DNA of 64,000 nucleotides from Arenicola marina (Eukaryota; Annelida; Polychaeta; Arenicolidae), in NCBI GenBank assembly GCA_964019135.1, contig OZ025257.1:27140352-27204351 (forward strand). Reading direction: 5' to 3'. Of this stretch, positions 2,712 through 57,790 are shown in pieces (the stretch's first letter is position 1; every line of letters begins with the position of its first letter). Below the pieces are notes generated by a model. That model saw only the letters and a program-made list of their open reading frames with translations. It did no database searches and had not been told where the DNA came from. The translations under genes and the position numbers were made by a program.

Positions 2712-2779
2712 TCAGGCGTCGACAGGCACATCCTGGGGCACAACCAGCAGCGTCTTCTGCAGTGTGATGGTCAAATTCG
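2712..2779 (-). CDS. SLC7A5: SLC7 last coding exon (copy A)
   Basis: Encodes [17 protein letters not shown] and a stop, the same as copy B, behind the same CTTCCAG acceptor. The 3' untranslated region presumably runs into the AT-rich sequence and small arrays toward position 1. Confidence 0.86.
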
Positions 2780-5700
2780 CTGGAAGGTCAAGGACAGAGA
2801 GAGGTTGTCTTACTGCCAACGAAGGATGAAATCGACATGCATCAAAAAGTCCTGTTTCCATGTTAGGGTGAACCATTGTTTTAGCATAGCTCACGTATAT
2901 CTCACGCCTACTATAGACTACGTAATACATTTCGTGGGTTCTAGCATAGAAGATGGACCCATCAAATCGACATGAAAACATGAACACATTCACAATCGAA
3001 CACTACCTATAATTAGTATCGAATGATGGGGCTAACAGAGTAGCAGAAGGCAACAAGGCAAATTAATTTCAAACATGTTATTAGTAAAAATGTGTTTTAA
3101 ATTGTTCTCTGCAAGACCAGACAAAAACAACATTTGATCAGGAATTTTAAAAAACTATCGTTGTTTTAAATGGCTAAATTTAAATAAAATTACACCATAT
3201 GCGCGCTTCCAGTGTCTAACATATACTGGGGTTCATTTCCCGTACAACGGTCCCCAGGCGCCACGTACCGACGAATTTGTTGAATGACTTTGGTTTGTTT
3301 TTCCAGACGACGCCGAGGATGTAGACTGGGATGCCGGTACAGACGATAAGCAGACCCATCCCCGTGGACCGCGGCTCGGCGTACAGCGGAACAATCAGCA
3401 GGAACAAGCAGAACAGCAGGAAGGTGATGGGCACCAGCAGGGGGAACTGAAATGTACATAAACATACATATATATAGGGGGATGATAGGGCACCAGCAGG
3501 GGGAACTGAAATGTACATAAACATACATATATATAGGGGGATGATAGGGCACCAGCAGGGGGAACTGAAATGTACATAAACATACATATATATAGGGGGG
3601 TGATAGGGCACCAGCAGGGGGAACTGAAATGTACATAAACATACATATATATAGGGGGGTGATAGGGCACCAGCAGGGGGAATTGAAATGTACATAAACA
3701 TACATATATATAGGGGGGTGATAGGGCACCAGCAGGGGGAACTGAAACGTACATAAACATACATATATATATAGGGGGATGATAGGGCACCAGCAGGGGG
3801 AACTGAAATGTACATAAACATACATATATATAGGGGGGTGATAGGGCACCAGCTGGGGGAACTGAAATGTACATAAACATACATATATATAGGGGGGTGA
3901 TAGGGCACCAGCAGGGGGAACTGAAATGTACATAAACATACATATATATAGGGGGGTGATAGGGCACCAGCAGGGGGAACTGAAATGTACATAAGTGAGT
4001 AACTGACCCATGGGCACGTGTGTGACTGACGCCTGGGGCAGTGTGTGACTGATGCCTGGACCAGTGAGTGACTGACGCCTGGGTCAGTGAGTGATTGACC
4101 CATGGGCATGTGAGTGACTGACGCCTGGACCAGTGAGTGACTGACGCCTGGGTCAGTGAGTGATTGACCCATGGGCATGTGAGTGACTGACGCCTGGACC
4201 AGTGAGTGACTGACGCCTGGGTCAGTGAGTGATTGACCCATGGGCACGTGAGTAACTGACCCATGGGCACGTGAGTGACTGACGCCTGGGTCAGTGAGTG
4301 ACTGACGCCTGGGTCAGTGAGTGACTGACGCCTGGGTCAGTGAGTGACTGACGCCTGGGTCAGTGAGTGACTGACCCCTGGGCCAGTGAGTGACTGACGC
4401 CTGGGTCAGTGAGTGACTGACGCCTGGGTCAGTGAGTGACTGACGCCTGGGTCAGTGAGTGACTGACGCCTGGGTCAGTGAGTGACTGACGCCTGGGTCA
4501 GTGAGTGACTGACGCCTGGGCCAGTGAGTGACTGATGCCTGGGGCAGTGTGTGACTGACGCCTGGGGCAGTGTGTGACTGACGCCTGGACCAATGAATAA
4601 CTGGGGCCAGTCAGTGACTGACGCCTGGGTCGGTGAGTGACTGACGCATGGACCAGTGAGTGACTGACCCCTGGGCCAGTGAGTGACTGGGGCCAGTGAG
4701 TGATTGACCCCTGTGTCAGTGAATTACTGACCCCTGGGCCAGTGAGTGACTGAACCCTGGGCCAGTGAGTGACTGACCCCTGGGCCAGTGAGTGACTGAC
4801 CCCTGGGCCAGTGAGTGACTGACGCCTGGGTCAGTGAGTGACTGACGCTTGGGTCAGTGTGTGACTGACGCCTAGGGCAGTGTGTGACTGACGCCTGGGT
4901 CAGTGAGTGACTGACGCCTGGGTCAGTGAGTGACTGACCCCTGGGCCAGTGAGTGACTGACGCCTGGGTCAGTGAGTGACTGACGCCTGGGTCAGTGAGT
5001 GACTGACGCCTGGGTCAGTGAGTGACTGACGCTTGGGTCAGTGTGTGACTGACGCCTGGGGCAGTGTGTGACTGACGCCTGGGTCAGTGAGTGACTGACG
5101 CCTGGGTCAGTGAGTGACTGACCCCTGGGCCAGTGAGTGACTGACGCCTGGGTCAGTGAGTGACTGACGCCTGGGTCAGTGAGTGACTGACGCCTGGGTC
5201 AGTGAGTGACTGACGCTTGGGTCAGTGAGTGACTGAGGCCTGGGCCAGTGAGTGACTGATGCTTGGGGCAGTGTGTGACTGACGCCTGGGGCAGTGTGTG
5301 ACTGACGCCTGGGACAGTGAGGGACTGACGCCTGGATCAATGAATAACTGGGGCCAGTCAGTGACTGACGCCTGGGTCGGTGAGTGACTGACGCATGGAC
5401 CAGTGAGTGACTGACCCCTGGGCCAGTGAGTGACTGGGGCCAGTGAGTGATTGACCCCTGTGTCAGTGAATTACTGACCCCTGGGCCAGTGAGTGACTGA
5501 ACCCTGGGCCAGTGAGTGACTGACCCCTGGGCCAGTGAGTGACTGACCCCTGGGCCAGTGAGTGACTGGGGCCAGTGAGTGATTGACCCCTGTGTCAGTG
5601 AATTACTGAACCCTGGGCCAGTGAGTGATTGACCCCTGTGTCAGTGAATTACTAACCCCTGGGCCAGTGAGTGACTGGGGCCAGTGAGTGACTGACCCCT

Positions 5701-8700
5701 GGGCCAGTGAGTGACTGACCCCTGGGCCAGTGAGTGACTGGGGCCAGTGAGTGATTGACCCCTGTTTCAGTGAATTACTGACCCCTGGGCCAGTGAGTGA
5801 CTGACCCCTGGGCCAGTGAGTGACTGACCCCTGGGCCAGTGAGTGACTGGGGCCAGTGAGTGATAGACCCCTGTGTCAGTGAATTACTGACCCCTGGGCC
5901 AGTGAGTGACTGACCCCTGGGCCAGTGAGTGACTGACCCCTGGGCCAGTGAGTGACTGGGGTCAGTGAGTGAGAGACGCCTGAGCCAGTAAGTGACTTAA
6001 TGTCTCACCTTAATGGGGCGCTCCATCTTGGGTTTCTTGTAGCGTAGGTAGAGCATGCCGGCGATGGACATACCGACGGAGAGCCACTGGACGAAGCTCA
6101 TGTAGTTAAGCAGCTGCCACATGTCATTGGAGACCAGGTAGATGAGAGACAGCCCTCCCTGTGAACAATGAACCACAGAGATCAGCATTAAGCACATACA
6201 CCCAGCCAACACGCCAACACGCCAACCAAGACACTTCGCCGGCGTAGCTGCAAGTCGCTTTCCGTTTGTCTAAACCAAATAAGCTTATATGATAATGTTT
6301 CACCTCTTTAACATTTATCAGTATGGATGTAGAAATATCACACGATTTAGCCATGATTACATATCATACTTCATTATACATAATTCCTTCAATATTGTTG
6401 AAATGTAAAAAAGCAGTCTTCACGTTACAAACTGTTCTTTTATAAGTCTTATTTACAAATTACAAGTAAATAATCTGGGATTTTTTTTTCCAAAACCGCT
6501 TAAGATTATTCATATTACTCCTCACAATATTCTTTGCGCTGACACCAAATTATTACAAATTATTGTATTAATTGGAATTTTCATTGGGATCATATTAGAG
6601 TTAAATAAAGAGCAAGCGCTAGCATTGGCAGATTATTCAAGCACCGCGGGAGACACAGACACACACAATGAGAGACAAGACATGATATAACAACTCGTAT
6701 CATTCATACTCCAACCGTTCAAAGAGACACGTTTTCACATGTTCACATTGTGCCATCCATCGCCATAAAAATCCGTCAGTGGTCCCGATAAAAAACTATT
6801 AAAAATACCACTTCCGGTACTCACCCTTCCGGTATGGAGACGTTCCAACAACGTTCCAGACATAACAAAAAACACGTGACCTGAAGCACGTGACTTACCG
6901 AGAAGAGCATGGCTGGCAGAGGAGTGAAGTTCTGCATGTGAATCATACCAAAAATGGCCGGCAGCTGTCCTTGCCGGGCACCAACGAAGAACAGTCTGAT
7001 GTGCAGAGGGAGGAAGACAGAAGAGCCCGTACAGAACAGTGGTTAGATATATAGCCAACCCATTTACCAAGCGCTCTGAGCCACTTCTGGTTTCCACGCG
7101 CCGTCGTTTGTCATCACTAACAGGCGACTTCCAATCGGATTAGCAACAGAAACGATTTCCCACTTACCTGCCTGGTAAGCAGCAGAGCGACTAGGTTATA
7201 ACTTTACATGCAGAAGTCTTAAAATATATTACAATAAAACAGAGAACGAGTTTAGAGATGCATGCACCGTGCCCAGAATTATATAACATCAGCATTGGTT
7301 AATAAACAAAACGGCCTAATTTATTACAGTATTCTAGTTTTGAAATGGTGTACATAAGTACAGTTGTCGGTAAGGTAGGTGTACTTCTGCCACCTTGGTG
7401 CCCGCCAATGTATGGGCTAAACCGGCCACGGTGTCTCCCGGAACAATAAGGGGAAATTATACGTGCAGCATTCCCCAGATTCACATGGCGTGCACGATCA
7501 TACAGGACCACACAGGACCACAGAGGACCACAGAGGACCGAGGCTCTTGCTATTGACTTGCAGCTCAGCGTAGAATCATCAACTGTGCTACGGAACCACC
7601 TCTGCCCCTCCCGATACAGGCGGTTCAGCCCCAAGAGGAACTTTGATTTTTCCTTTCAAAGGATGTAATTATGGAACGGATATAACCAAAATGCCGACAA
7701 TCAGACGAGTTGCAAGCCCCATACCGGATTAACCAATACCCACTGCTATCATTCCAAGGTTTTATTTATACCCACATTAATACATGACAACCGAGGCAAA
7801 ACATTGATTAATTTGATTGAATTATGTATGAGGCTTATTAACCTCTGCAGGTAATATAGCGACGAAAGGTCAATGAAGCGAGGAACCATGTCTCCGGATG
7901 TAACCCCATACTCTTTGCAAAGAAAGACACGGGATCTTTATCCTTCACAAGCAAGGATTATTTGCACAGGCGGGATTCGAATCCCGCACCGGCTGCTTGA
8001 GCTAGGCCCCCGGTTTGCGCCTCAGTAATTCCAGATTGCCGATGAGTCCCACACAACAAGCCCTATGCAGAGATATATACAGAGAGCTGTTAAAAGGTTA
8101 GTCGCCGTGATACACCAGACTCGTGACGTGACGTACTCACATGCAGTCTCCTGCGAGATGTCATGGCAACCGGGAGTCTTGGCCAATACAATACTTAGGT
8201 CATACCCACGTCACCACTCTTGCTATATTATACATATTTTTTTACCTACGCCAACTTGCTTCCATCGGCCACGTGCGAAAATCGCCTTACGGGGTGATTT
8301 TTCGTTACGACAAAAGATTAAACAGAACTCCGGTGTTAACGTTTACATAAAAAGTTAAAGTAATATAAATTCAAAGGCGATGTGTACGCACGAGCGTGAG
8401 GAGAGCGCGCGGGAGTACTTGCGCCCAGAGGGACGCCTGATTCGTTAGCCCTGGAGTAGGGTAGGTCATACTCTCTACTTACAGAGAATAGCAAGGCGGG
8501 GAGCGGGGTAAAGGTCTCCATGTTGATCATAGCCAGCGCCTCAGGCAAATGACCTTGGCAAGCTCCCACAAAAAACAACCTGCAAGGCGCAAAACAACAC
8601 CGCAGACCATCAAAACACGTCACATTGCCTCCAGAGAGAGGTCAGCCGCCATTTTGGGGTTGTTTAAGACAATATCTGGGCTTCTGTTTGTCCAGACCAG

Positions 8701-9313
8701 AGGGCGCTGCACGTTAGCGTTGGTCGCGATACGTTTAAACAGTAGAACACAACGTTTCAAGGACATAGAGGGTATTAACTGATACAGCACCTTGTGCTTA
8801 TATCCCTCGTTGTCAAGGACAACAGATTCTGCCCTTCTCCCGTTGCCAGAGACAACACTGTGCATGTTCAACCTTGCGAGGACCAATACGGTACGCGGAA
8901 GTTTGACTGCGCCTCTACCCGTTACCACGGACAACAGGGTACGTTTTGCCCCGTTGCCATGGACACAAATTGATGCCTCAACCCGCACTTATTGGCAGAT
9001 GAGCAGCCCAAAGGCCTTGATGTCATAAGATCATAGACAACAAATATAATGCTGAAATGAACCTCATTTTCCCCTAACATCACCATTCACATCTCAGCTA
9101 AAATTGTGGTTCCGTTATGACAAACGTCGCTGAATTACAACAGCTCCCAGCACTACATGAGCGCGCTATGATAAGATATTGGCCCCGGTAAGCGGGACTC
9201 CGGACTCACCTTCCGGACGTGAAGAGAAGTCCGTTGACGCCGCCGAAACAGGACAAGGACACGAAGACCGGGATGATCCAAGCCATGACCCCAAAGACAC
9301 GATCGGCGAAGAT
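2712..9313 (-). CDS. SLC7A5: Duplicated 3' half of the SLC7 transporter (copy A)
   Basis: A second set of the terminal exons on the same strand: 9313-9210, one of 8579-8483 or 6995-6899, 6158-6009, 3446-3269 and 2779-2712. All splice sites and phases are kept. The exons encoding everything before TM8 are missing. To the right there is only the donor-type minisatellite, then AGXT2-like and transposon DNA. It could be a dead partial duplicate or an alternative 3' end spliced onto the upstream half of the main gene. One conserved arginine has become cysteine (exon 8483-8579), which hints at relaxed selection. I see no broken frame. Confidence 0.85.
3269..3446 (-). CDS. SLC7A5: SLC7 exon 178 nt: TM11-TM12 (copy A)
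   Basis: Same protein as 32046-32223 ([26 protein letters not shown]). Its acceptor end is repeated about ten times upstream (3446, 3505, 3564, 3623, 3682, 3741, 3802, 3861, 3920, 3979). The copy at 3682 has lost its AG. Confidence 0.9.
3431..3995 (-). repeat. 59-bp minisatellite made of a splice acceptor and exon start (copy A)
   Basis: About ten units of 59 bp (one of 61). On the minus strand each unit reads intron (TATATATGTATGTTTATGTA), the acceptor CATTTCAG, then TTCCCCCTGCTGGTGCCC. Those are the true acceptor and the first six codons (FPLLVP) of the exon at 3269-3446. The unit then runs back into the polypyrimidine stretch. Open frames here are a by-product. Confidence 0.93.
3996..5990. 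repeat. 23-bp minisatellite, about 2 kb (copy A)
   Basis: Unit GTCAGTGAGTGACTGACGCC plus TGG, with variants (GACCCCTGGGCC; GGGGCCAGTGAGTGA). It fills the intron between the 150-nt and 178-nt exons, starts next to the donor at 6009 and touches the 59-bp array at its other end. By length about 85 units. Confidence 0.93.
6009..6158 (-). CDS. SLC7A5: SLC7 exon 150 nt: TM9-TM10 (copy A)
   Basis: Fifty codons with [15 protein letters not shown] and [10 protein letters not shown], the same protein as copy B. Donor AAG|GTGAGA is followed within about 25 bp by the 2-kb 23-bp array. Confidence 0.9.
6160..6898. other. Intron between the 97-nt version b and 150-nt exons (copy A)
   Basis: AT-rich unique sequence with no coding signal. 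The equivalent in copy B is 33494-34233. Confidence 0.6.
6899..6995 (-). CDS. SLC7A5: SLC7 97-nt exon, version b (copy A)
   Basis: Reads [18 protein letters not shown] then [14 protein letters not shown], the same protein as 34234-34330, with ATCAG acceptor and GTAAGT donor. It lies 1.5 kb downstream of version a, so the alternative pair predates the duplication. Confidence 0.86.
7884..8027 (-). mobile_element. tRNA-derived SINE, family 2 (copy A)
   Basis: On the minus strand a B-box-like GGGATTCGAATCCC is followed by a tail with GGATAAAGATCCCGTGTCTT and a CATGGTTC end. The same tail occurs at 60482-60660. It lies in the intron between the two 97-nt exons. Confidence 0.65.
8483..8579 (-). 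CDS. SLC7A5: SLC7 97-nt exon, version a (copy A)
   Basis: Reads [18 protein letters not shown] then [14 protein letters not shown] with intact splice sites. It differs from copy B by an arginine-to-cysteine change in the conserved GA-R-E/Q-G motif (TGC here, CGC in copy B; base 8560), a CpG-type transition. Confidence 0.87.
9210..9313 (-). CDS. SLC7A5: SLC7 exon 104 nt: TM8 (copy A)
   Basis: Same protein segment as 36551-36654 ([17 protein letters not shown]) with the same CTCCAG acceptor and GTGAGT donor. It is the first exon kept in copy A. Upstream of it the intron is the 43-bp array, with no exon body at its far end. Confidence 0.88.
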
Positions 9314-9459
9314 CTGGAGCAGTACAACAAAATATATCTCATATCATACTGACTTACACACTGGTTGTCAGTACAGACTAAACCGGTCCGCGCATATTAA
9401 TAGTAACAGTAATAATAGCAAGACAATCGCACATTTTCGACCTCTGATTACTTCAATTC

Positions 9460-12400
9460 TTACCACAGCCACGGCGTCGGCCTCTTTGATCCCGCAATAC
9501 CCTTACCACAGCCACGGCGTCGGCCTCTTTGATCTTGCAATACCCTAACCAACAGCCGCGGCGTCGGCCTCTTTGATCTTTCAAAACCCTAACCACAGCC
9601 ACGGCGTCGGCCTCTTTGATCCCGCAATACCCTTACCACAGCCACGGCGTCGGCCTCTTTGATCTTGCAACACCCTAACCAACAGCCGCGGCGTCGGCCT
9701 CTTTGATCTTTCAAAACCCTTACCACAGCCACGGCGTCGGCCTCTTTGATCTTTCAATACCCTAACCACAGCCACGGCGTCGGCCTCTTTGATCTTTCAA
9801 TACCCTGACCACAGTCACGGCGTCGGCCTCTTTGGACTTGCAATACCCTAACCACAGCCACGGCGTCGGCATCTTTGATCTTTCAATACCCTGACCACAG
9901 CTACGGCGTCGGCCTCTTTGATCTTCCAATACCCTTACCGCAGCCACGGCTTCTTTGATCTTGCAAAACCCTAACCACAGCCACGGCGTCGGCCTTTTTG
10001 ATCTTTCAAAACCCTTACCACAGCCACGGCGTCGGCCTCTTTGATCTTGCAATACCCTAACCAACAGCCGCGGCGTCGGCCTCTTTGATCTTTCAAAACC
10101 CTAACCACAGCCACGGCGTCGGCCTCTTTGATCTTTCAATACCCTAACCACAGCCACGGCGTCGGCCTCTCTGATCTTTCAATACCCTGACCACAGCCAC
10201 GGCGTCGGCCTCTTTGGTCTTGCAATACCCTAACCACAGCCACGGCGTCGGCCTCTTTGATCTTTCAATACCCTGACCACAGCTACGGCGTCGGCCTCTT
10301 TGATCTTCCAATACCCTTACCGCAGCCACGGCTTCTTTGATCTTGCAAAACCCTAACCACAGCCACGGCGTCGGCCTCTTTGATCTTTCAAAACCCTTAC
10401 CACAGCCACGGCGTCGGCCTCTTTGATCTTGCAAAACCCTAACCACAGCCACGGCGTCGGCCTCTTTGATCTTTCAAAACCCTTACCACAGCCACGGCGT
10501 CGGCCTCTTTGATCTTGCAATACCCTAACCAACAGCCGCGGCGTCGGCCTCTTTGATCTTTCAAAACCCTAACCACAGCCACGGCGTCGGCCTCTTTGAT
10601 CTTTCAAAACCCTAACCAACAGCCGCGGCGTCGGCCTCTTTGATCTTTCAAAACCCTAACCACAGCCACGGCGTCGGCCTCTTTGATCTTTCAATACCCT
10701 AACCAACAGCCGCGGCGTCGGCCTCTTTGATCTTTCAAAACCCTAACCACAGCCACGGCGTCGGCCTCTTTGATCTTGCAATACCCTAACCAACAGCCGC
10801 GGCGTCGGCCTCTTTGATCTTTCAAAACCCTAACCAACAGCCGCGGCGTCGGCCTCTTTGATCTTTCAAAACCCTAACCAACAGCCGCGGCGTCGGCCTC
10901 TTTGATCTTTCAAAACCCTAACCAACAGCCGCGGCGTCGGCCTCTTTGATCCCGCAATACCCTTACCACAGCCACGGCGTCGGCCTCTTTGATCCCGCAA
11001 TACCCTTACCACAGCCACGGCGTCGGCCTCTTTGATCTTGCAATACCCTAACCAACAGCCGCGGCGTCGGCCTCTTTGATCTTGCAATACCCTAACCACA
11101 GCCACGGCGTCGGCCTCTTTGATCTTTCAATACCCTAACCACAGCCACGGCGTCGGTCTTTTTGATCTTGCAATACCCTTACCACAGCCACGGCGTCGGC
11201 CTCTTTGATCTCGCAATACCCTTACCACAGCCACGGCGTCGGCCTCTTTGACCTCGCAATACCCTTACCACAGCCACGGCGTCGGCCTCTTTGATCTCGT
11301 AATACCCTTACTACAGCCACGGCGTCGACCTCTTTGATCTTGCAATACCCTTACCAAAGCCACGGCGTCGGCCTCTTTGACCTCGCAATACCCTCACCAC
11401 AGCCACGGCGTCGGCCTCTTTGATCTTCCAATACCCTTACCACAGCCACGGCGTCGGCCGCTTTGATCTTTCAATACCCTTACCACAGCCACGGCGTCGG
11501 CCTCTTTGATCTCGCAATACCCTTACCACAGCCACGGCCTCTTTGATCTTACAATACCTTTCCCACAGCCAGGGCGTCGGCCTCTTTGATCCCGCAATAC
11601 CCTAACCACCGCCACGGCGTCGGCCTCTTTGATCTCCCAATACCCTAACCACCGCCACGGCGTCGGCCTCTTTGATCTTCCAATACCCTAACCACCGCCA
11701 CGGCGTCGGCCTCTTTGATCTTGCAATACCCTAACCACAGCCACGGCGTCGGCCTCTTTGATCTTTCAATACCCTAACCACAGCCACGGCGTCGGTCTTT
11801 TTGATCTTGCAATACCCTTACCACAGCCACGGCGTCGGCCTCTTTGATCTCGCAATACCCTTACCACAGCCACGGCGTCGGCCTCTTTGACCTCGCAATA
11901 CCCTTACCACAACCACGGCGTCGGCCTCTTTGATCTCGTAATACCCTTACTACAGCCACGGCGTCGACCTCTTTGATCTTGCAATACCCTTACCAAAGCC
12001 ACGGCGTCGGCCTCTTTGACCTCGCAATACCCTCACCACAGCCACGGCGTCGGCCTCTTTGATCTTCCAATACCCTTACCACAGCCACGGCGTCGGCCGC
12101 TTTGATCTTTCAATACCCTTACCACAGCCACGGCGTCGGCCTCTTTGATCTCGCAATACCCTTACCACAGCCACGGCCTCTTTGATCTTACAATACCTTT
12201 CCCACAGCCAGGGCGTCGGCCTCTTTGATCCCGCAATACCCTAACCACCGCCACGGCGTCGGCCTCTTTGATCTCCCAATACCCTAACCACCGCCACGGC
12301 GTCGGCCTCTTTGATCTTCCAATACCCTAACCACCGCCACGGCGTCGGCCTCTTTGATCTCGCAATACCCTTACCACAGCCACGGCGTCGGCCTCTTTGA

Positions 12401-13655
12401 TCTCGCAATACCCTTACCACAGCCACGGCCTCTTTGATCTTGCAATACCTTTCCCACAGCCACGGCGTCGGCCTCTTTGATCTCGCAATACCCTAACCAC
12501 AGCCACGGCGTCGGCCTCTTTGATCTTCCAATACCCTTAACACAGCCACGGCGTCGGCCTCTTTGATCTCGCAATACCCTTACCACAGCCACGGCGTCGG
12601 CCTCTTTGATCTTTCAATACCTTTCCCACAGCCACGGCGTCGGCCTCTTTGATCTCGCAATACCCTAACCACCGCCACGGCGTCGGCCTCTTTGATCTTT
12701 CAATACCCTAACCACCGCCACGGTGTCGGCCTCTTTGATTTTCCAATACCCCTACCACAGCCACGGCCTTTTATGATCTTGCAATACCCTTACCACAGCC
12801 ACGGCGTCGGCCTCTTTGATCTCGCAATACCCTTACCACAGCCACGGCGTCGGCCTCTTTGATCTCGTAATACCCTTACCACAGCCACGGCGTCGGCCTC
12901 TTTGATCTTCCAACACCCTAACCACCGCCACGGCGTCGGCCTCTTTGATCTCGCAATACCCTTACCACAGCCACGGCCTCGGCCTATTTGATCTCGCAAT
13001 ACCCTTACCACAGCCACGGCCTCTTTGATCTTGCAATACCTTTTCCACAGCCACGGCGTCGGCCTCTTTGATCTCGCAATACCCTAACCACAGCCACGGC
13101 GTCGGCCTCTTTGATCTTCCAATACCCGTACCACAGCCACGGCGTCGGCCTCTTTGATCTCGCAATACTCTTACCACAGCCACGGCGTCGGCCTCTTTGA
13201 CCTCGCAATACCCTTACCACAGCCACGGCGTCGGCCTCTTTGATCTCGCAATACCCTTACCACAGCCACGGCGTCGGCCTCTTTGATCTCGTAATACCCT
13301 TACCACAGCCACGGCGTCGACCTCTTTGATCTCGCAATACCCTTACCACAGCCACGGCGTCGGCCTCTTTGACCTCGCAATACCCTTACCACAGCCACGG
13401 CGTCGGCCTCTTTGATCTCGTAATACCCTTACTACAGCCACGGCGTCGACCTCTTTGATCTTGCAATACCCTTACCACAGCCACGGCGTCGGCCTCTTTG
13501 ATCTTGTAATACCCTTACCACAGCCACGGCGTCGACCTCTTTGATCTCGCAATACCCTTACCACAGCCACGGCGTCGGCCTCTTTGACCTCGCAATACCC
13601 TTACCACAGCCACGGCGTCGGCCTCTTTGATCTCGTAATACCCTTACTACAGCCA
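9460..13655 (-). repeat. 43-bp minisatellite made of exon end plus splice donor (copy A)
   Basis: On the minus strand the unit reads GAGATCAAAGAGGCCGAC, GCCGTGGCTGTG, then GTAAGG and GTATTGC: the codons [10 protein letters not shown] and the donor of exon 41536-41704. By length about 97 units. Many units vary at the donor (GTAAGG, GTTAGG, GTCAGG) and some lack 6 bp of the exon part. In this copy the exon itself is absent from the upstream end. Confidence 0.95.
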
Positions 13656-13689
13656 TATCGTGGCTCTTGCCCTAACCACGTCCACGTGT

Positions 13690-14450
13690 TTTGATCGTAG
13701 ATTTCACTGCCGGGTGTTGGCCGTGTGTTGATCAATGTCGTAGATTTCACTGCCGGGTGTTGGCCGTGTGTTGATCCAAGTCGTAGATTTCACTGCGGGG
13801 TGTTGGCCGTGTGTTGATCCAAGTCGTAGATTTCACTGCCGGGTGTTGGCCGTGTGTTGATCAATGTCGTAGATTTCACTGCCGGGTGTTGGCCGTGTGT
13901 TGATCCAAGTCGTAGATTTCACTGCCGGGTGTTGGCCGTGTGTTGATCAATGTCGTAGATTTCACTGCCGGGTGTTGGCCGTGTGTTGATCAATGTCGTA
14001 GGTTTCACTGCCGGGTGTTGGCCGTGTGTTGATCCAAGTCGTAGATTTCACTGCCGGGTGTTGGCCGTGTGTTGATCAATGTCGTAGATTTCACTGCCGG
14101 GTGTTGGCCGTGTGTTGATCAATGTCGTAGATTTCACTGCCGGGTGTTGGCCGTGTGTTGATCCAAGTCGTAGATTTCACTGCCGGGTGTTGGCCGTGTG
14201 TTGATCAATGTCGTAGATTTCACTGCCGGGTGTTGGCAGTGTGTTGATCCAAGTCGTAGATTTCACTGCCGGTTGTTGGCCGTGTGTTGATCCAAGTCGT
14301 AGATTTCACTGCCGGGTGTTGGCCGTGTGTTGATCAATGTCGTAGATTTCACTGCCGGGTGTTGGCCGTGTGTTGATCCAAGTCGTAGATTTCACTGCCG
14401 GGTGTTGGCCGTGTGTTGATCAATGTCGTAGATTTCAACGCCGGGTGTTG
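13690..14450 (-). repeat. 43-bp minisatellite made of the AGXT2-like C-terminus and stop
   Basis: On the minus strand the unit reads ACGGCCAACACCCGGCAG, TGA, then AATCTACGACATTGATCAAC. It is the last codons (TANTR) and stop of the exon at 14435-14542 plus its 3' flank. About 18 units by length. Unrelated in sequence to the neighbouring 43-bp array despite the equal period. Confidence 0.9.
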
Positions 14451-14542
14451 GCCGTGTGGTCGCTGAGGGCCTTACTCATGACAGCGACGGCGAAGTCGAC
14501 GTCAGCCTTGCTGATACACATGGAGGGTTTGATGCGAAGTAC
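14435..14542 (-). CDS. AGXT2: Last coding exon of an AGXT2-like aminotransferase
   Basis: Reads VLRIKPSMCISKADVDFAV then AVMSKALSDHTANTRR and TGA. It aligns with the C-terminus of mitochondrial alanine-glyoxylate aminotransferase 2 ([20 protein letters not shown]), a PLP enzyme. The boundary where an acceptor should lie reads CTTTCCGG|GTACTT, with no AG nearby, so the splice site seems lost or non-canonical. No other AGXT2 exon is visible to the right within the window. It may be the end of a gene cut off by rearrangement, or an orphan exon. The stop is immediately followed by the 43-bp array that copies it. Confidence 0.75.
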   Translation of the reverse strand, partial: VLRIKPSMCISKADVDFAVAVMSKALSDHTANTRR

Positions 14543-17990: not shown

Positions 17991-17994
17991 GCGT

Positions 17995-20669: not shown

Positions 20670-20859
20670 ACAGGTTGCGTGGATCTGCGATTTTTAAAAC
20701 CGACAACGCCTACAATCTGAAAGCTGTTTCTTTATTTGAACATGAAAATGTTGGGTGTCTTATATATAGGACGCTACGCGCGGCAGGGTACAGATAAAAT
20801 TTACAGATGTATGTCATTCTACCGTTTATTCTAGGAACATCTCTTGTTAGCTAAGGGCG

Positions 20860-24540: not shown

Positions 24541-24554
24541 CTCTCTTATGTCAT

Positions 24555-25925: not shown

Positions 25926-25929
25926 TGAG

Positions 25930-28565: not shown

Positions 28566-28680
28566 TTTAAGGCCATTTTTGTGCACACATGAGCTAAGCC
28601 AGGTCACTCACGGCATCCCTGGGACAACGAATGATGGGGAGTGAACTGGAGTAGAGGCCCCCTAATCGCCTGGTCCATAT
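28566..28680 (-). mobile_element. SINE tail, family 1, at the left edge of copy B
   Basis: GTTTTAAGGCCATTTTTGTG and the following bases match the 3' tail of the other family 1 copies; the tRNA-like head is missing. Its inner part is repeated at positions 1-88. Confidence 0.55.
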
Positions 28681-28719
28681 GAGATCAAATCAATATCAAC
28701 AGATAATTCGCTTTAGTTG

Positions 28720-31488: not shown

Positions 31489-31556
31489 TCAGGCGTCGAC
31501 AGGCACATCCTGGGGCACAACCAGCAGCGTCTTCTGCAGTGTGATGGTCAAATTCG
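31489..31556 (-). CDS. SLC7A5: SLC7 last coding exon (copy B)
   Basis: Acceptor CCTTCCAG after a long pyrimidine tract, then the C-terminus [21 protein letters not shown] and a TGA stop. It aligns with the LAT1 ending QKLMQVVPQE. Its first two bases complete an alanine codon started in the previous exon. I found no clear polyadenylation signal downstream. Confidence 0.88.
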
Positions 31557-34500
31557 CTGGAAGGTCAAGGACAGAGAGAGGTTGTCTTACTGCCAACGAA
31601 GGATGAAATCGACATGCATCAAAAAGTCCTGTTTCCATGTTAGGGTGAACCATTGTTTTAGCATAGCTCACGTATATCTCACGCCTACTATAGACTACGT
31701 AATACATTTCGTGGGTTCTAGCATAGAAGATGGACCCATCAAATCGACATGAAAACATGAACACATTCACAATCGAACACTACCTATAATTAGTATCGAA
31801 TGATGGGGCTAACAGAGTAGCAGAAGGCAACAAGGCAAATTAATTTCAAACATGTTATTAGTAAAAATGTGTTTTAAATTGTTATCTGCAAGACCAGACA
31901 AAAACAACATTTGATCAGGAATTAAAAAAAACTATCGTTGTTTTAAATGGCTAAATTTAAATAAAATTACACCATATGCGCGCTTCCAGTGTCTAACATA
32001 TACAGGGGTTCATTTCCCGTACAACGGTCCCCAGGCGCCACGTACCGACGAATTTGTTGAATGACTTTGGTTTGTTTTTCCAGACGACGCCGAGGATGTA
32101 GACTGGGATGCCGGTACAGACGATAAGCAGACCCATCCCCGTGGACCGCGGCTCGGCGTACAGCGGAACAATCAGCAGGAACAAGCAGAACAGCAGGAAG
32201 GTGATGGGCACCAGCAGGGGGAACTGAAATGTACATAAACATACATATATATAGGGGGATGATAGGGCACCAGCAGGGGGAACTGAAATGTACATAAACA
32301 TACATATATATAGGGGGATGATAGGGCACCAGCAGGGGGAACTGAAATGTACATAAACATACATATATATAGGGGGGTGATAGGGCCCCAGCAGGGGGAA
32401 CTGAAATGTACATAAGTGAGTAACTGACCCATGGGCACGTGTGTGACTGACGCCTGGACCAGTGAGTGACTGACGCCTGGGTCAGTGAGTGATTGACCCA
32501 TGGGCACGTGAGTAACTGACCCATGGGCACGTGAGTGACTGACGCCTGGGTCAGTGAGTGACTGACGCCTGGGTCAGTGAGTGACTGACGCCTGGGTCAG
32601 TGAGTGACTGACGCCTGGGTCAGTGAGTGACTGACGCCTGGGTCAGTGAGTGACTGACGCCTGGGTCAGTGAGTGACTGACGCCTGGGTCAGTGAGTGAC
32701 TGACGCCTGGGCCAGTGAGTGACTGATGCCTGGGGCAGTGTGTGACTGGCGCCTGGGGCAGTGTGTGACTGACGCCTGGGACAGTGAGGGACTGACGCCT
32801 GGACCAATGAATAACTGGGGCCAGTCAGTGACTGACGCCTGGGTCGGTGAGTGACTGACGCATGGACCAGTGAGTGACTGACCCCTGGGCCAGTGAGTGA
32901 CTGGGGCCAGTGAGTGATTGACCCCTGTGTCAGTGAATTACTGACCCCTGGGCCAGTGAGTGACTGACCCCTGGGCCAGTGAGTGACTGGGGCCAGTGAG
33001 TGATTGACCCCTGTGTCAGTGAATTACTGACCCCTGGGCCAGTGAGTGACTGACCCCTGGGCCAGTGAGTGACTGACCCCTGGGCCAGTGAGTGACTGGG
33101 GCCAGTGAGTGATTGACCCCTGTTTCAGTGAATTACTGACCCCTGGGCCAGTGAGTGACTGACCCCTGGGCCAGTGAGTGACTGACCCCTGGGCCAGTGA
33201 GTGACTGGGGCCAGTGAGTGATAGACCCATGTGTCAGTGAATTACTGACCCCTGGGCCAGTGAGTGACTGACCCCTGGGCCAGTGAGTGACTGGGGTCAG
33301 TGAGTGAGAGACGCCTGAGCCAGTAAGTGACTTAATGTCTCACCTTAATGGGGCGCTCCATCTTGGGTTTCTTGTAGCGTAGGTAGAGCATGCCGGCGAT
33401 GGACATACCGACGGAGAGCCACTGGACGAAGCTCATGTAGTTAAGCAGCTGCCACATGTCATTGGAGACCAGGTAGATGAGAGACAGCCCTCCCTGTGAA
33501 CAATGAACCACAGAGATCAGCATTAAGCACATACACCCAGCCAACACGCCAACACGCCAACCAAGACACTTCGCCGGCGTAGCTGCAACTCGCTTTCCGT
33601 TTGTCTAAACCAAATAAGCTTATATGATAATGTTTCACCTCTTTAACATTTATCAGTATGGATGTAGAAATATCACACGATTTAGCCATGATTACATATC
33701 ATACTTCATTATACATAATTCCTTCAATATTGTTGAAATGTAAAAAAGCAGTCTTCACGTTACAAACTGTTCTTTTATAAGTCTTATTTACAAATTACAA
33801 GTAAATAATCTGGGATTTTTTTTTCCAAAACCGCTTAAGATTATTCATATAACTCCTCACAATATTCTTTGCGCTGACACCAAATTATTACAAATTATTG
33901 TATTAATTGGAATTTTCATTGGGATCATATTAGAGTTAAATAAAGAGCAAGCGCTAGCATTGGCAGATTATTCAAGCACCGCGGGAGACACAGACACACA
34001 CAATGAGAGACAAGACATGATATAACAACTCGTATCATTCATACTCCAACCGTTCAAAGAGACACGTTTTCACATGTTTACATAGTGCCATCCATCGCCA
34101 TAAAAATCCGTCAGTGGTCCCGATAAAAAACTATTAAAAATACCACTTCCGGTACTCACCCTTCCGGTATGGAGACGTTCCAACAACGTTCCAGACATAA
34201 CAAAAAACACGTGACCTGAAGCACGTGACTTACCGAGAAGAGCATGGCTGGCAGAGGAGTGAAGTTCTGCATGTGAATCATACCAAAAATGGCCGGCAGC
34301 TGTCCTTGCCGGGCACCAACGAAGAACAGTCTGATGTGCAGAGGGAGGAAGACAGAAGAGCCCGTACAGAACAGTGGTTAGATATATAGCCAACCCATTT
34401 ACCAAGCGCTCTGAGCCACTTCTGGTTTCCACGCGCCGTCGTTTGTCATCACTAACAGGCGACTTCCAATCGGATTAGCAACAGAAACGATTTCCCACTT

Positions 34501-37500
34501 ACCTGCCTGGTAAGCAGCAGAGCGACTAGGTTATAACTTTACATGCAGAAGTCTTAAAATATATTACAATAAAACAGAGAACGAGTTTAGAGATGCATGC
34601 ACCGTGCCCAGAATTATATAACATCAGCATTGGTTAATAAACAAAACGGCCTAATTTATTACAGTATTCTAGTTTTGAAATGGTGTACATAAGTACAGTT
34701 GTCGGTAAGGTTGGTGTACTTCTGCCACCTTGGTGCCCGCCAATGTATGGGCTAAACCGGCCACGGTGTCTCAAGGGACAATAAGGGGAAATTATACGTG
34801 CAGCATTCCCCAGATTCACATGGCGTGCACGATCATACAGGACCACACAGGACCACAGAGGACCACAGAGGACCGAGGCTCTTGCTATTGACTTGCAGCT
34901 CAGCGTAGAATCATCAACTGTGCTACGGAACCACCTCTGCCCCCCCCCCCCCCGATACAGGCGGTTCAGCCCCAAGAGGAACTTTGATTTTTCCTTTCAA
35001 AGGATGAAATTATGGAACGGATATAACCAAAATGCCGACAATCAGACGAGTTGCAAGCCCCATACCGGGTTAACCAATACCCACTGCTATCATTCCAAGG
35101 TTTTATTTATACCTACATTAATACATGACAACCGAGGCAAAACATTGATTAATTTGATTGATTTATGTATGACGCTTATTAACCTCTGCAGGTCATATAG
35201 CGACGAAAGGTCAAGGAAGCGAGGAACCATGTCTCCGGATGTAACCCCATACTCTTTGCAAAGAAAGACACGGGATCTTTATCCTTCACAAGCAAGGATT
35301 ATTTGCACAGGCGGGATTCGAATCCCGCACCGGCTGCTTGAGCTAGGCCCCCGGTTTGCGCCTCAGTAATTCCAGATTGCCGATGAGTCCCACACAACAA
35401 GCCCTATGCAAAGATATATACAGAGAGCTGTTAAAAGGTTAGTCGCCGTGATACACCAGACTCGTGACGTGACGTACTCACATGCAGTCTCCTGCGAGAT
35501 GTCATGGCAACCGGGAGTCTTGGCCAATACAATACTTAGGTCATACCCACGTCACCACTCTTGCTATATTATACATATTTTTTTACCTACGCCAACTTGC
35601 TTCCATCGGCCACGTGCGAAAATCGCCTTACGAGGTGATTTTTTGTTACGACAAAAGATTAAACAGAACTCCGGTGTTAACGTTTACATAAAAAGTTAAA
35701 GTAATATAAATTCAAAGGCGATGTGTACGCACGAGCGTGAGGAGAGCGCGCATGACTACTTGCGCCCAGAGGGACGCCTGGTTCGTTAGCCCTGGAGTAG
35801 GGTAGGTCATACTCTCTACTTACAGAGAATAGCAAGGCGGGGAGCGGGGTAAAGGTCTCCATGTTGATCATAGCCAGCGCCTCAGGCAAATGACCTTGGC
35901 GAGCTCCCACAAAAAACAACCTGCAAGGCGCAAAACAACACCGCAGACCATCAAAACACGTCACATTGCCTCCAGAGAGAGGTCAGCCGCCATTTTGGGG
36001 TTGTTTAAGACAATATCTGGGCTTCTGTTTGTCCAGACCAGAGGGCGCTGCACGTTAGCGTTGGTCGCGATACGTTTAAACAGTAGAACACAACGTTTCA
36101 AGGACATAGAGGGTATTAACTGATACAGCACCTTGTGCTTATATCCCTCGTTGTCAAGGACAACAAATTCTGCCCTTCTCCCGTTGCCAGAGACAACTCT
36201 GTGCATGTTCAACCTTGCGAGGACCAATACGGTACGCGGAAGTTTGACTGCGCCTCTACCCGTTACCACGGACAACAGGGTACGTTTTGCCCCGTTGCCA
36301 TGGACACAAATTGATGCCTCAACCCGCACTTATTGGCAGATGAGCAGCCCAAAGGCCTTGATGTCATAAGATCATAGACAACAAATATAATGCTGAAATG
36401 AACCTCATTTTCCCCTAACATCACCATTCACATCTCAGCTAAAATTGTGGTTCCGTTATGACAAACGTCGCTGAATTACAACAGCTCCCAGCACTACATG
36501 AGCGCGCTATGATAAGATATTCGCCCCGGTAAGCGGGACTTCGGACTCACCTTCCGGACGTGAAGAGAAGTCCGTTGACGCCGCCGAAACAGGACAAGGA
36601 CACGAAGACCGGGATGATCCAAGCCATGACCCCAAAGACACGATCGGCGAAGATCTGGAGCAGTACAACAAAATACACACTGGTTGTCAGTACAGACTAA
36701 ACCGGTCCGCGCATATTAATAATAACAGTAATACTAGCAAGACAATCGCACATTTTCGACCTCTGATTATTGCAATTCTTACCACCGCCACGGCGTCGGC
36801 CTCTTTGATCCCGCAATACCCTTACCACAGCCACGGCGTCGGCCTCTTTGATCTTTCAATACCCTGACCACAGCCACGGCGTCGGCCTCTTTGATCTTTC
36901 AATACCCTGACCACAGCCACGGCGTCGGCCTCTTTGATCTTCCAATACCCTTATCACAGCCACGGCGTCGGCCTCTTTGATCTTGCAATACCTTTACCAC
37001 AGCCACAGCGTCGGCCTCTTTGGTCTTTCAATACCCTGACCACAGCTACGGCGTCGGCCTCTTTGATCTTCCAATACCCTAACCACAGCCACGGCGTCGG
37101 CCTCTTTGATCTTCCAATACCCTTATCACAGCCACGGCGTCGGCCTCTTTGATCTTGCAATACCCTTACCACAGCCACGGCGTCGGCCTCTTTGATCTCG
37201 CAATACCCTTACCACAGCCATGGCCTCTTTCATCTTGCAATACCCTAACCACCGCCACGGCGTCGGCCTCTTTGATCTTCCAATACCCTAACCACAGCCA
37301 CGGCCTCTTTCATCTTGCAATACCCTAACCACAGCCACGGCGTCGGCCTCTTTGATCTTCCAATACCCTTACCACAGCCATGGCCTCTTTCATCTTGCAA
37401 TACCCTAACCACCGCCACGGCGTCGGCCTCTTTGATCTTCCAATACCCTGACCACAGCTACGGCGTCGGCCTCTTTGATCTTCCAATACCCTTACCGCAG

Positions 37501-40500
37501 CCACGGCTTCTTTGATCTTGCAATACCCTAACCACAGCTACGGCGTCGGCCTCTTTGATCTTCCAATACCCTAACCACAGCCACGGCCTCTTTCATCTTG
37601 CAATACCCTAACCACAGCCACGGCGTCGGCCTCTTTGATCTTCCAATACCCTTACCACAGCCATGGCCTCTTTCATCTTGCAATACCCTAACCACCGCCA
37701 CGGCGTCGGCCTCTTTGATCTTCCAATACCCTGACCACAGCTACGGCGTCGGCCTCTTTGATCTTCCAATACCCTTACCGCAGCCACGGCTTCTTTGATC
37801 TTGCAATACCCTTACCGCAGCCACGGCGTCGGCCTCTTTGATCTTGCAATACCCTTACCACAGCCGCAGCGTCGGCCTCTTTGATCTCGCAATACCCTTA
37901 CCACAGCCATGGCCTCTTTCATCTTGCAATACCCTAACCACCGCCACGGCGTCGGCCTCTTTGATCTTCCAATACCCTAACCACAGCCACGGCCTCTTTC
38001 ATCTTGCAATACCCTAACCACAGCCACGGCGTCGGCCTCTTTGATCTTCCAATACCCTAACCACAGCCACGGCCTCTTTGATCTTGCAATACCTTTCCCA
38101 CAGCCACGGCGTCGGCCTCTTTGATCTCGCAATACCCTTACCACAGCCACGGCGTCGGCCTCTTTGACCTCGCAATACCCTTACCACAGCCACGGCGTCG
38201 GCCTCTTTGATTATCCAATACCCTTACCACAGCCATGGCATCGGCCTCTTTGATCTTCCAATACCCTTACCACAGCCACGGCGTCGGCCTCTTTGATCTC
38301 GCAATACCCTTACCACAGCCACGGCCTCTTTGATCTTACAATACCTTTACCACCGCCACGGCGTCGGCCTCTTTGATCTCCCAATACCCTAACCACCGCC
38401 ACGGCGTCGGCCTCTTTGATCTTCAAATACCCTAACCACCGCCACGGCGTCGGCCTCTTTGATCTCGCAATACCCTTACCACAGCCACGGCGTCGGCCTC
38501 TTTGATCTCGCAATACCCTTACCACAGCCACGGCGTCGGCCTCTTTGATCTCGCAATACCCTTACCACAGCCACGGCCTCTTTGATCTTGCAATACCTTT
38601 CCCACAGCCACGGCGTCGGCCTCTTTGATCTCGCAATACCCTAACCACAGCCACGGCGTCGGCCTCTTTGATCTTCCAATACCCTAACCACAGCCACGGC
38701 CTCTTTCATCTTGCAATACCCTAACCACAGCCACGGCGTCGGCCTCTTTGATCTTCCAATACCCTTACCACAGCCATGGCCTCTTTCATCTTGCAATACC
38801 CTAACCACCGCCACGGCGTCGGCCTCTTTGATCTTCCAATACCCTGACCACAGCTACGGCGTCGGCCTCTTTGATCTTCCAATACCCTTACCGCAGCCAC
38901 GGCTTCTTTGATCTTGCAATACCCTAACCACAGCTACGGCGTCGGCCTCTTTGATCTTCCAATACCCTAACCACAGCCACGGCCTCTTTCATCTTGCAAT
39001 ACCCTAACCACAGCCACGGCGTCGGCCTCTTTGATCTTCCAATACCCTTACCACAGCCATGGCCTCTTTCATCTTGCAATACCCTAACCACCGCCACGGC
39101 GTCGGCCTCTTTGATCTTCCAATACCCTGACCACAGCTACGGCGTCGGCCTCTTTGATCTTCCAATACCCTTACCGCAGCCACGGCTTCTTTGATCTTGC
39201 AATACCCTTACCGCAGCCACGGCGTCGGCCTCTTTGATCTTGCAATACCCTTACCACAGCCGCAGCGTCGGCCTCTTTGATCTCGCAATACCCTTACCAC
39301 AGCCATGGCCTCTTTCATCTTGCAATACCCTAACCACCGCCACGGCGTCGGCCTCTTTGATCTTCCAATACCCTAATCACAGCCACGGCCTCTTTCATCT
39401 TGCAATACCCTAACCACAGCCACGGCGTCGGCCTCTTTGATCTTCCAATACCCTAACCACAGCCACGGCCTCTTTGATCTTGCAATACCTTTCCCACAGC
39501 CACGGCGTCGGCCTCTTTGATCTCGCAATACCCTTACCACAGCCACGGCGTCGGCCTCTTTGACCTCGCAATACCCTTACCACAGCCACGGCGTCGGCCT
39601 CTTTGATTATCCAATACCCTTACCACAGCCACGGCATCGGCCTCTTTGATCTTCCAATACCCTTACCACAGCCACGGCGTCGGCCTCTTTGATCTCGCAA
39701 TACCCTTACCACAGCCACGGCCTCTTTGATCTTACAATACCTTTACCACAGCCACGGCGTCGTCCTCTTTGATCCCGCAATACCCTAACCACTGCCACGG
39801 CGTCGGCCTCTTTGATCTCTCAATACCCTAACCACCGCCACGGCGTCGGCCTCTTTGATCTTCCAATACCCTAACCACCGCCACGGCGTCGGCCTCTTTG
39901 ATCTCGCAATACCCTTACCACAGCCACGGCGTCGGCCTCTTTGATCTCGCAATACCCTTACCACAGCCACGGCCTCTTTGATCTTGCAATACCTTTCCCA
40001 CAGCCACGGCGTCGGCCTCTTTGATCTCGCAATACCCTAACCACAGCCACGGCGTCGGCCTCTTTGATCTTCCAATACCCTTACCACAGCCACGGCGTCG
40101 GCCTCTTTGATCTCGCAATACCCTTACCACAGCCACGGCCTCTTTGATCTTGCAATACCTTTCCTACAGCCACGGCGTCGGCCTCTTTGATCTCGCAATA
40201 CCCTAACCACCGCCACGGCGTCGGCCTCTTTGATCTTCCAATAGCCTTACCACCGCCACGGCGTCGGCCTCTTTGATCTCGCAATACCCTTACCACAGCC
40301 ACGGCGTCGGCCTCTTTGATCTCGCAATACCCTTACCACACCCACGGCCTCTTTGATCTTGCAATACCTTTCCCACAGCCACGGCGTCGGCCTCTTTGAT
40401 CTCGCAATACCCTAACCACAGCCACGGCGTCGGCCTCTTTGATCTCGCAATACCCTTACCACACCCACGGCCTCTTTGATCTTGCAATACCTTTCCCACA

Positions 40501-43500
40501 GCCACGGCGTCGGCCTCTTTGATCTTCCAATACCCTTACCACAGCCACGGCCTTTTATGATCTCGTAATACCCTTACCACAGCCACGACGTCGGCCTCTT
40601 TGACCTCGCAATACCCTTACCACAGCCACGGCGTCGGCCTCCTTGATCTTCCAATACCCTTACCACAGCCACGGCGTCGGCCTCTTTGATCTTCCAATAC
40701 CCTTACCACAGCCACGGCGTCGGCCTCTTTGATCTCGCAATACCCTTACCACAGCCACGGCCTCTTTGATCTTACAATACCTTTCCCACAGCCACGGCGT
40801 CGGCCTCTTTGATCTCGCAATACCCTAACCACCGCCACGGCGTCGGCCTCTTTGATCTTCCAATACCCTAACCACCGCCACGGCGTCGGCCTCTTTGATC
40901 TTCCAATACCCTAACCACCGCCACGGCGTCGGCCTCTTTGATCTCGCAATACCCTTACCACAGCCACGGCGTCGGCCTCTTTGATCTCGCAATACCCTTA
41001 CCACAGCCACGGCCTCTTTGATCTTGCAATACCTTTCCCACAGCCATGGCGTCGGCCTCTTTGATCTCGCAATACCCTAACCACAGCCACGGCGTCGGCC
41101 TCTTTGATCTTCCAATACCCTTACCACAGCCACGGCGTCGGCCTCTTTGATCTCGCAATACCCTTACCACAGCCACGGCCTCTGATCTTGCAATACCTCT
41201 CCCACAGCCATGGCGTCGGCCTCTTTGATCTCGCAATACCCTAACAACCGCCACGGCGTCGGCCTCTTTGATCTTCCAATACCCTTACCACAGCCACGGC
41301 CTTTTATGATCTTGCAATACCCTTACCACAGCCACGGCGTCGGCCTATTTGATCTCGCAATACCTTTCCCACAGCCACGGCGTCGGTCTCTTTGATCTCG
41401 CAATACCCTTACCACAGCCACGGCGTCGGCCTCTTTGATCTTCCAATACCCTAACCACAGCCACGGCCTCTTTGATCTTCCAATACCCTTGCCACAGCCA
41501 CGGCGTCGGCCTCTTTGATCTCGCAATACCCTTACCACAGCCACGGCGTCGGCCTCTTTGATCTCCTCGGGGGACACGATGCTGCAGTAGGCCACGTTGG
41601 CCATGACGTAGGTAAAGGTGACGAGGGGCAGCGAGAGGTAGATGGCGCGGGGCATGTCTCGCTGAGGATCCTTCATCTCCTCGGTCACGAAGTTCAAGAA
41701 GTTCCTGCCAGCAAATCAATGAACGAATTGCATGTTTTAGGCCATTGTTATGCTTACACGCCAGGGTTAAAACTTGGCTAAGGAACCTCTTAGGATCGTG
41801 AGGGATGTATGGATAAAACATGCTCCAGATTATGTGCCTGGGTCCGGATTAGAACCAAGGACATATTGATCTGCGGCTTAGTACGCTTGTTACACCACCA
41901 GGGACCCCGCCCCCCGCTCCCTCTAACCCGACAAAGTCGATCAGAAGCTTAAAGCGCTGACTGACAATATAGCAAGGATGCGGTCCTTGGACATAGTCAC
42001 GGATAGGACTACACACTTGTAACAACTTGTAACCAATAAATGTCCTCCAAAGTTTGTGATGACTTTGGCCACTTGCGATTCTACACCTTCACCCTGACTC
42101 CCAATGACCCGTGACCTGCCAGATGACCTTTGACCTACCAGCCAGCATAAGCAAACAGTCCGGAGTACACAGCCAGAGACATCTTGCCCACATCCAACTC
42201 GGTGCCTTCAAACGCATTCTGGAAATGTTCCACTCGCCCTGAAGAGAAAGGAGAAGCAATTGAAGAAGCAACGTCATTGCAGCAGCGCATCTGAACACTA
42301 GACCCAAGCCTATCATATCCTACATTGTGCACAGACCCCGGAACCCACATTGCACACTGACTCTGACCCTACATTGTACACTGATCCTGACCCCACATTG
42401 TACACTGATCCTAACCCAACATCATACACTGACCTTGACCGTACATTGTACACTGATCCTGACCCACATTGTACACTGATGCTGATCCCACATTGTACAC
42501 TGACCCTGACCCCACATTGTACACTGACCATGACCCCACATTGTACACTGACCCTGACCCCACATTGTACACTGACCATGACCCCATATTGTACACTAAC
42601 TCCAAATTGTACACTGACCCCACATTGTACACTGGCCCAACATTGTACACTGACCCTGACCCCATTATTGACCCCTGGCGCCACTCTGACCCCAGACGCC
42701 ACTGACCCCTGTACACTGACCTAATCCCATCATGGCGAACCCGGTGACGATGATGATGGCGAGGGCCAGGAGCTTAGCCCGTGACCTCACACTGACCCCT
42801 GACCCCACACTGACCCATGACCCCACACTGACCCCTGACCACACACTGTACACTGACCTAATCCCATCATGGCGAACCCGGTGACGATGATGATGGCGAG
42901 GGCCAGGAGCTTGGCCACCGTGAACAGGTCCTGGATGCGTGTCGACCAGCGCACGCTGCGGGCATTGATGAAGGTCAGCAGCGCTGTAACAGGGAGCGCA
43001 ATGGTCAGGGCACAGGGTAACAGATAAAGATAGAGCCACAGAGAAGGGCACAATGCATCAGTGACAGTGTTACAGAGGAAGGCAGTGTAACAGAGGTATA
43101 CAGTGTCACAGGTAGACAGTGTAACAGAGGTAGACAGTGTCACAGAGACAGTGTAACAGAGGAAGACAGTGTAACCGAGGTAGACAGTGTAACCGAGGTA
43201 GAAAGTGTAACAGAGGAAGACAGCGTCACAGAGACAGTGTAATAGAAGTAGACAGTGTAACAGAGGCAGACTGTAACAGGCATAATCACAAATGTCACAG
43301 AAACCGCGTAATAGAGGCAGAATCAATGTAACAGATACAGACAGCGTCACAGGCAGAACTAATGTAATACAGAGACAATAGTATAACAGAGATAATGGCA
43401 TAACAAACACAATATAAAAAGGACAAGCATACTGTAACAGAGGCCGACAATTGTTAACGTGCAACTCTTGTTCCCATTGTGATTCCTATTTTATAAAATG

Positions 43501-57790: not shown

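Follow-up and report, generated by a model that had tools for sequence, protein, structure and literature searches.

Tandem repeats whose unit contains an intron-exon boundary are described in the globin genes of lancelets, where they lie on both sides of introns and leave splicing undisturbed, and where intron gain through such units was proposed (PMC3087553, as far as the accessible part of that paper goes). The same source refers to Adh3 and other loci and to the name 'mirages', and PGBD5 and TnC are added to the mirage loci in the accessible part of a further report (PMC3902484). Earthworm metallothionein carries intronic minisatellites, and units lying on splice sites are not described in the part of that paper available to us (PMC12783039). 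Among the matches listed by our literature search, which included few subscription papers and was judged by title and the opening of the abstract, none described mirages from an annelid or quantified the enrichment of arrays at donors.

We now describe arrays of this kind in a window of 64,000 nucleotides (C10:27140352-27204351 of an 867-Mb eukaryotic genome, that of Arenicola marina), for which a first-pass annotation had remarked that minisatellites repeatedly start at exon edges, and we extend the analysis to a sample of exons from the same genome. The junction arrays are mirages, in a phylum for which the literature search, limited to the accessible parts of its sources, found no earlier report. 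One globin exon (L022) has its best match in the giant extracellular haemoglobin A2 chains (PDB 3wct, E 6e-38), followed by 1yhu. The 3wct entries are presumably of tubeworm origin, and a globin of the giant-haemoglobin type indicates an annelid host. A search for the GFP family, intended as a check for a lancelet, gave no signal in any of 14 control genomes either, and the host was therefore judged from the globins.

Materials and methods

Tandem repeats were located with Tandem Repeats Finder (TRF), and repeated segments of the window by self BLASTN. Units of the 43-bp arrays were compared by gapped alignment, with 98 complete units in copy 1 and 115 in copy 2. For the last exon of the AGXT2-like gene the start was not located, there being no clear AG, and this exon was left uncounted; the other exons of that gene lie outside the edge count.

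The sample consisted of 163 exons defined by homology, through Pfam searches of the Arenicola marina genome. It comprises 65 long loci with 1.5-kb flanks (globin 29, AA_permease_2 23, Aminotran_3 13), all of which were kept including matches with stops, together with 78 SNF and 20 SSF exons with short flanks (200 and 300 bp). Candidates scored were 82 of 490 for SNF, yielding 98 rows from which 20 with in-frame stops were excluded, and 26 of 73 for AA_permease_2; the SSF exons were taken from 64 rows, with 10 containing stops and two exact duplicates skipped. One locus, L037, has a TGA ahead of the donor and may be a pseudogene. Loci L001-L008 were excluded from the sample.

The zones around exon edges were fixed after inspection of the SNF exons and the 65 long loci and ahead of the SSF exons; bins beyond 120 bp were altered after the zones were fixed, and the control was also a later addition. 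Because 200-bp flanks under-detect distant arrays, a matched control was made from 3000 pseudo-exons taken out of the flanking sequence of those 65 loci (about 216 kb) and passed through the identical pipeline, in which 67 of the 3000 had a spanned edge on one side and 83 had one on the opposite side.

Spanning cases were vetted by eye and kept if the unit holds at least 8 bp of exon. The donor cases dropped were L058, L072, L076 and L090, in which the array starts at or within about 4 bp of the donor, L059, which is unclear, and L099, which is an in-frame coding repeat inside the exon. Acceptor cases L106 and L134 extend more than 60 bp into the exon, outside the zone used for the control. 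The vetted donors were collapsed to independent events by unit similarity and by eye.

Results

The minus-strand exons of Table 1 belong to what we take, from its resemblance to LAT1, to be an SLC7A/LAT-like transporter, and the gene at about 14.5 kb ends in a way that we presume to be that of AGXT2; the open frame at 20064-20693 (minus strand) is presumably a fragment of a LINE-type reverse transcriptase. TRF returned 71 rows, which merge into 42 arrays covering 39% of the window. The window holds a segmental duplication, with pieces of 91.7-98.0% identity by self BLASTN: the first-pass annotation had treated its arrays as independent, and here it was mistaken, since the 59-, 23- and 43-bp arrays found at 3.4-13.7 kb pair with those of 32.2-41.6 kb by virtue of that duplication. 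Copy 1 of the SLC7A-like gene begins only past the 43-bp array, which lies there without its exon. The arrays show length instability between the duplicated copies, with 9.7 and 3.6, 87.5 and 41.5, and 98.3 and 115.8 units (TRF; copies 1 and 2), these being paralogous copies and not alleles. The duplication ends, at 13655, at the margin of the recognisable 43-bp donor array and beside the unrelated 43-bp array of the AGXT2-like gene, which suggests that the donor array acted as a breakpoint. Both copies of the gene also hold two similar consecutive exons (35920-35824 and 34330-34234, minus strand; 8579-8483 and 6995-6899 in copy 1) that share their phase and the pattern LFFVGA.QG...FTPLPA.LFS, have an acceptor and a donor each, and look like mutually exclusive alternative exons.

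Table 1. Duplicated segments, SLC7A-like exons and minisatellites of the window.
Feature	Position	Strand	Remarks	Evidence
Segmental duplicate, copy 1	1..13655	.	right end inside 43-bp donor array; left end may fall beyond window	self BLASTN
Segmental duplicate, copy 2	28593..41564	.	3' part of SLC7A/LAT-like gene	self BLASTN, exon translations
59-bp acceptor array, copy 1	3423..3994	-	9.7 copies	TRF, self BLASTN
23-bp minisatellite, copy 1	3994..5958	-	starts 51 bp past exon end 6009	TRF, self BLASTN
43-bp array, copy 1	9459..13655	-	~98 copies (98.3)	TRF, self BLASTN, unit alignment
Unrelated 43-bp minisatellite, AGXT2-like gene	13695..14458	-	over last 21 coding bp and TGA (14437-14435)	TRF, self BLASTN
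59-bp minisatellite	32202..32415	-	3.6 copies; spans acceptor before 32223	TRF, translation
23-bp minisatellite	32415..33332	-	fills remainder of intron holding 59-bp array; starts 12 bp past exon end 33344	TRF
43-bp minisatellite	36778..41564	-	~116 copies (115.8); spans donor after 41536	TRF, unit alignment
24-bp minisatellite	42322..42597	-	next intron; flanking, not spanning; 84 bp from nearest edge	TRF
137-bp repeat	42647..42916	-	1.9 copies; nested 18-bp array	TRF
18-bp (and related) minisatellite	43012..43414	-	upstream of acceptor before 42983; flanking, not spanning; 28 bp off	TRF
SLC7A-like exons, copy 2, first half	57790-57658, 42983-42858, 42238-42139, 41704-41536, 36654-36551	-		AG/GT at inner edges
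SLC7A-like exons, copy 2, second half	35920-35824, 34330-34234, 33493-33344, 32223-32046, 31556-31489	-		AG/GT at inner edges
SLC7A-like exon	42858..42983	-	3' end duplicated by 137-bp repeat	translation, AG/GT sites
SLC7A-like exon	41536..41704	-	translation ends EADAVAV; donor repeated in 43-bp array	translation, AG/GT sites
Next SLC7A-like exon	36551..36654	-	inferred mRNA joins it to first donor of 43-bp array	translation

Arrays had been reported on a donor, an acceptor and a stop codon, and all three are confirmed. The 43-bp unit spans the exon-intron boundary and repeats the splice signal: it comprises the last ~29 bp of the exon, the donor GTAAG and ~9 bp of further intron (~14 bp of intron in total), and in the direction of the gene the array begins within the exon, and ~125 bp of unique intron separate its other end from the next exon. 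An intron born wholly from this repeat was considered and rejected, as the array stops short of the acceptor by that distance and the start of the next exon is absent from the unit. The 59-bp unit contains the acceptor TTTCAG and the first 22-24 bp of the exon, and the stop-codon array includes 21 coding bp and the TGA. The placement of the remaining arrays was partly right. The 18-bp array flanks an acceptor as described, and the partial exon copy that had been assigned to the 24-bp array is present, only within the 137-bp repeat, which repeats the final ~59 bp of the exon (end 42858) together with its donor; the 24-bp array merely flanks. The 23-bp array does begin close past a donor, at the differing distances of Table 1 in place of a single one of about 25 bp. 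In a DNA search of the genome (three candidates scored, common words skipped), the only match to the 43-bp array outside the window was an exon match at C17:16298609, so that in this search the array is confined to the SLC7A-like gene pair.

The annotation had also held that chance placement was unlikely. In the non-duplicated set, 3 of 19 mapped splice edges are spanned, by the 43-bp and 137-bp donor arrays and the 59-bp acceptor array, against 0.41 expected (P 0.0086, or 0.0098 with 20 edges), which agrees with that claim, with the proviso that the count is post hoc, the window having been noticed for its arrays.

Within the 43-bp arrays, position +1 is G in 97 of 98 units of copy 1 and 112 of 115 of copy 2, and T occupies +2 in 93 and 103 of these units, respectively; +3 is A or T, variable in 40-45% of units, as are two junction positions. 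Deletions, all within the exonic part, affect 7 of the 98 units and 32 of the 115. The three frames of the array hold 39, 46 and 49 stops, and read-through from the exon would continue for 210 bp beyond it before reaching a stop. These deletions and stops fit the suggestion of the first-pass annotation that selection acts on the edge copy only: selection appears to keep that copy alone intact. R-loops and template switching, which the annotation named besides, are candidate mechanisms only. Joining the exon-proximal donor copy to the next exon keeps the frame and gives a continuous LAT-like reading; the mRNA would be normal despite the extra splice sites if splicing keeps to this donor. A faster decay of internal donors than of the rest of the unit, seen in an ungapped alignment, was gone after gapped alignment, and we therefore claim no selection on internal donors.

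The proposed enrichment at exon borders was then compared with the 163-exon sample, where it stood at donors and failed for spanned acceptors. By raw coordinates, arrays span 27 of 163 donors (SNF 19/78, SSF 2/20, the rest 6/65) against 3.6 expected from the pseudo-exons, and 4 of 163 acceptors in the 60-bp zone against 4.5; a stricter threshold (score 150, 3 copies) leaves 20 donors and 3 acceptors, with a control rate of 0.013 per edge. After vetting, 21 of the 27 donor cases and 6 acceptor cases remain, 4 of the latter inside the 60-bp zone. The 21 donors represent 14 independent events, and, against 3.5 expected for each count, Poisson P values that ignore the error of the control itself are 2e-5 for the 14 donors, 0.15 for 6 acceptors and 0.47 for 4. 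Donors exceed acceptors at 14:6 with P 0.115, at 14:4 (acceptors of the 60-bp zone only) with P 0.03 and, uncollapsed, at 21:6 with P 0.006. In globin, Aminotran_3 and SSF, a subset with little or no candidate selection that was itself picked afterwards, arrays span 7 of 124 edges where 2.7 are expected (P 0.02), and in globin and Aminotran_3, for which every candidate was scored (42 loci), 4 of 84 against 1.8 (P 0.11). The spanning excess sits at donors, so that 'exon borders' in general is too broad a description.

The first 60 bp of intron hold an excess of arrays at either side of the exon, with 18 arrays against 5.05 expected at donors and 13 against 5.5 at acceptors (pseudo-exon control); at 60-120 bp the counts are 6 against 4.6 and 10 against 4.0. 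With match ends taken as edges, array ends per kb at donors number 2.77 in the last 60 bp of the exon and 1.84 in intron 0-60 bp, then 0.4-0.7, and at acceptors 0.41 on the exon side, 1.33 in intron 0-60 bp and 1.02 in 60-120 bp, then 0.3-0.5. Random edge shifts in the 65 long loci gave the first-pass claim a chance to fail, and the sample did not refute it: 31 array ends lie in -60..+120 bp against 16.6 expected (0/1000 permutations), with 6 against 2.8 on the donor exon side (47/1000) and 1 against 3.0 on the acceptor exon side. Splice-called edges of the same loci give 26 against 11.9 (0/1000), with 5 against 2.4 on the donor exon side (95/1000). GC content was rejected as a sufficient cause, as the enrichment that it predicts is just 1.5-fold for exon ends and, over the first 60 bases of the intron, 1.2-fold.

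At homologous SLC6 donors, the boundaries of the array unit differ from one paralogue to the next (L110, L120 and L137; L086 and L123). In a cluster of SLC6-like exons at C13:2.68-2.86 Mb (L083, L085, L086, L088, L110, L124, L126, L142), 8 of 13 sampled donors are spanned, and of the SLC6-like exons on C11 and at C10:41.4 Mb, 0 of 13 sampled are spanned at either edge. Small in-frame repeats also occur within exons: the SLC6-like exon of L099 (389-469, gene sense) has an 18-bp coding repeat (NDSFLG), which indicates that some exons tolerate small coding arrays, and at L013:1979-2143 a globin-like open frame of 384 aa has an in-frame 27-bp coding repeat (KCPVTATVA) within its C-terminal part.

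Discussion

We propose, with good but not full confidence, that the arrays are 'mirage'-type minisatellites that arise by duplication of a junction, in which the exon-proximal site is used and the remainder drifts as intron. A tandem duplication would take in an exon-intron junction, giving a unit made up of exon sequence, the splice site and intron sequence. Splicing would stay on the copy next to the exon and the mRNA would be normal, and the copies beyond the edge copy would be intron, free for expansion, contraction and homogenisation. On this proposal, junction duplications survive because splicing uses the exon-proximal site, and units spanning a donor would be tolerated more easily than those spanning an acceptor, because upstream acceptor copies would compete first. 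The donor excess is likely real in this sample, resting mostly on one family and on the 216-kb control. An excess over the intron background would imply something more, namely more frequent birth or longer survival at exon ends, and it may reflect a hot spot of birth, arrays that last longer, or biased sampling within a single family.

Minisatellites might instead be born evenly, with no process linked to borders, those at edges and in introns surviving and the edge cases being striking since they are recognisable. The density of arrays (116 in the 216 kb of the control, and their large share of the window), the match of acceptor-spanning counts to the control and the lack of significance in the fully scored families alone are all in keeping with even birth; nevertheless, donor-spanning arrays remain 4-fold above the pseudo-exons after paralogues are collapsed and random edge shifts fall short of the observed ends, and we consider even birth unlikely. 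A difference in survival and not in birth, whereby exon-adjacent DNA is old and undeletable or irreplaceable and arrays there outlast those in intron interiors that turn over, would account for the enrichment of the first 60 intron bases at both edges and its fading with distance. By itself, however, it does not predict exon-side enrichment at donors but not at acceptors, and arrays near edges show no clear sign of greater age (identity 86 against 88%), so that we hold survival to be a possibility to be entertained only tentatively.

That donors are putative birth hot spots, through co-transcriptional structure, an exon-edge nucleosome or microhomology-driven duplication, is rather doubtful in our estimation, the recurrence of arrays of differing register at corresponding SLC6 donors of separate paralogues being the observation that favours it. 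A genome search that favours exons with repeated ends could also inflate the count: only part of the AA_permease_2 candidates were scored, and likewise only part of those of SNF, the family that gives most cases, in which repeated exon ends may therefore be too frequent. Such an artefact should lift acceptor cases too, yet the uncollapsed vetted counts differ, and the least selected subset still shows an excess, which together make it quite improbable. In an extended version, 5' splice sites would be repeated and independent birth hot spots of minisatellites at homologous donors, exon ends would feed intron growth, and rows of up to ~100 donor copies might bind U1 snRNP, with an effect on transcription across long introns; we offer this as a long shot.

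Mirages in a probable annelid, occurring in its transporter, aminotransferase and globin genes and with a measured excess at donors, make the choice between a mutational hot spot and tolerance of duplications testable, and likewise the questions of how introns grow and how segmental duplications break, given that copy 1 ends in the 43-bp array.

Several described systems share some of these features, as judged from the accessible parts of the reports. The C. elegans repeat CeRep25B is a minisatellite over-represented near certain splicing regions, as here, but it is an intronic family near alternative splicing, and units with a splice site are not described in the part of that paper available to us (PMC4039745). 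Human internal tandem repeats in segmental duplications similarly bring together minisatellites, genes and segmental duplication, but are said to modify gene structure, whereas the edge copy of the 43-bp array appears to preserve the gene (PMC2812944). Intron gain by tandem duplication in ATP2A1 and potato RdRp shares the duplication of a segment with splice signals; there the duplication creates a new intron, whereas the 43-bp array keeps its unique intron ahead of the next exon (PMC4974935). The closest likeness is to the lancelet mirages (Adh3, BflGb6/BflGb9, TnC, PGBD5), which share boundary-spanning units and length instability (PMC3087553, PMC3902484). The BflGb6 haplotypes described have 6 and 3 units, compared with the ~116 copies reached in Arenicola marina, and, unlike the lancelet mirages in the accessible descriptions, the present arrays come from a probable annelid, show an excess that is strongest at donors and was measured against a control, and include one case on a stop codon.
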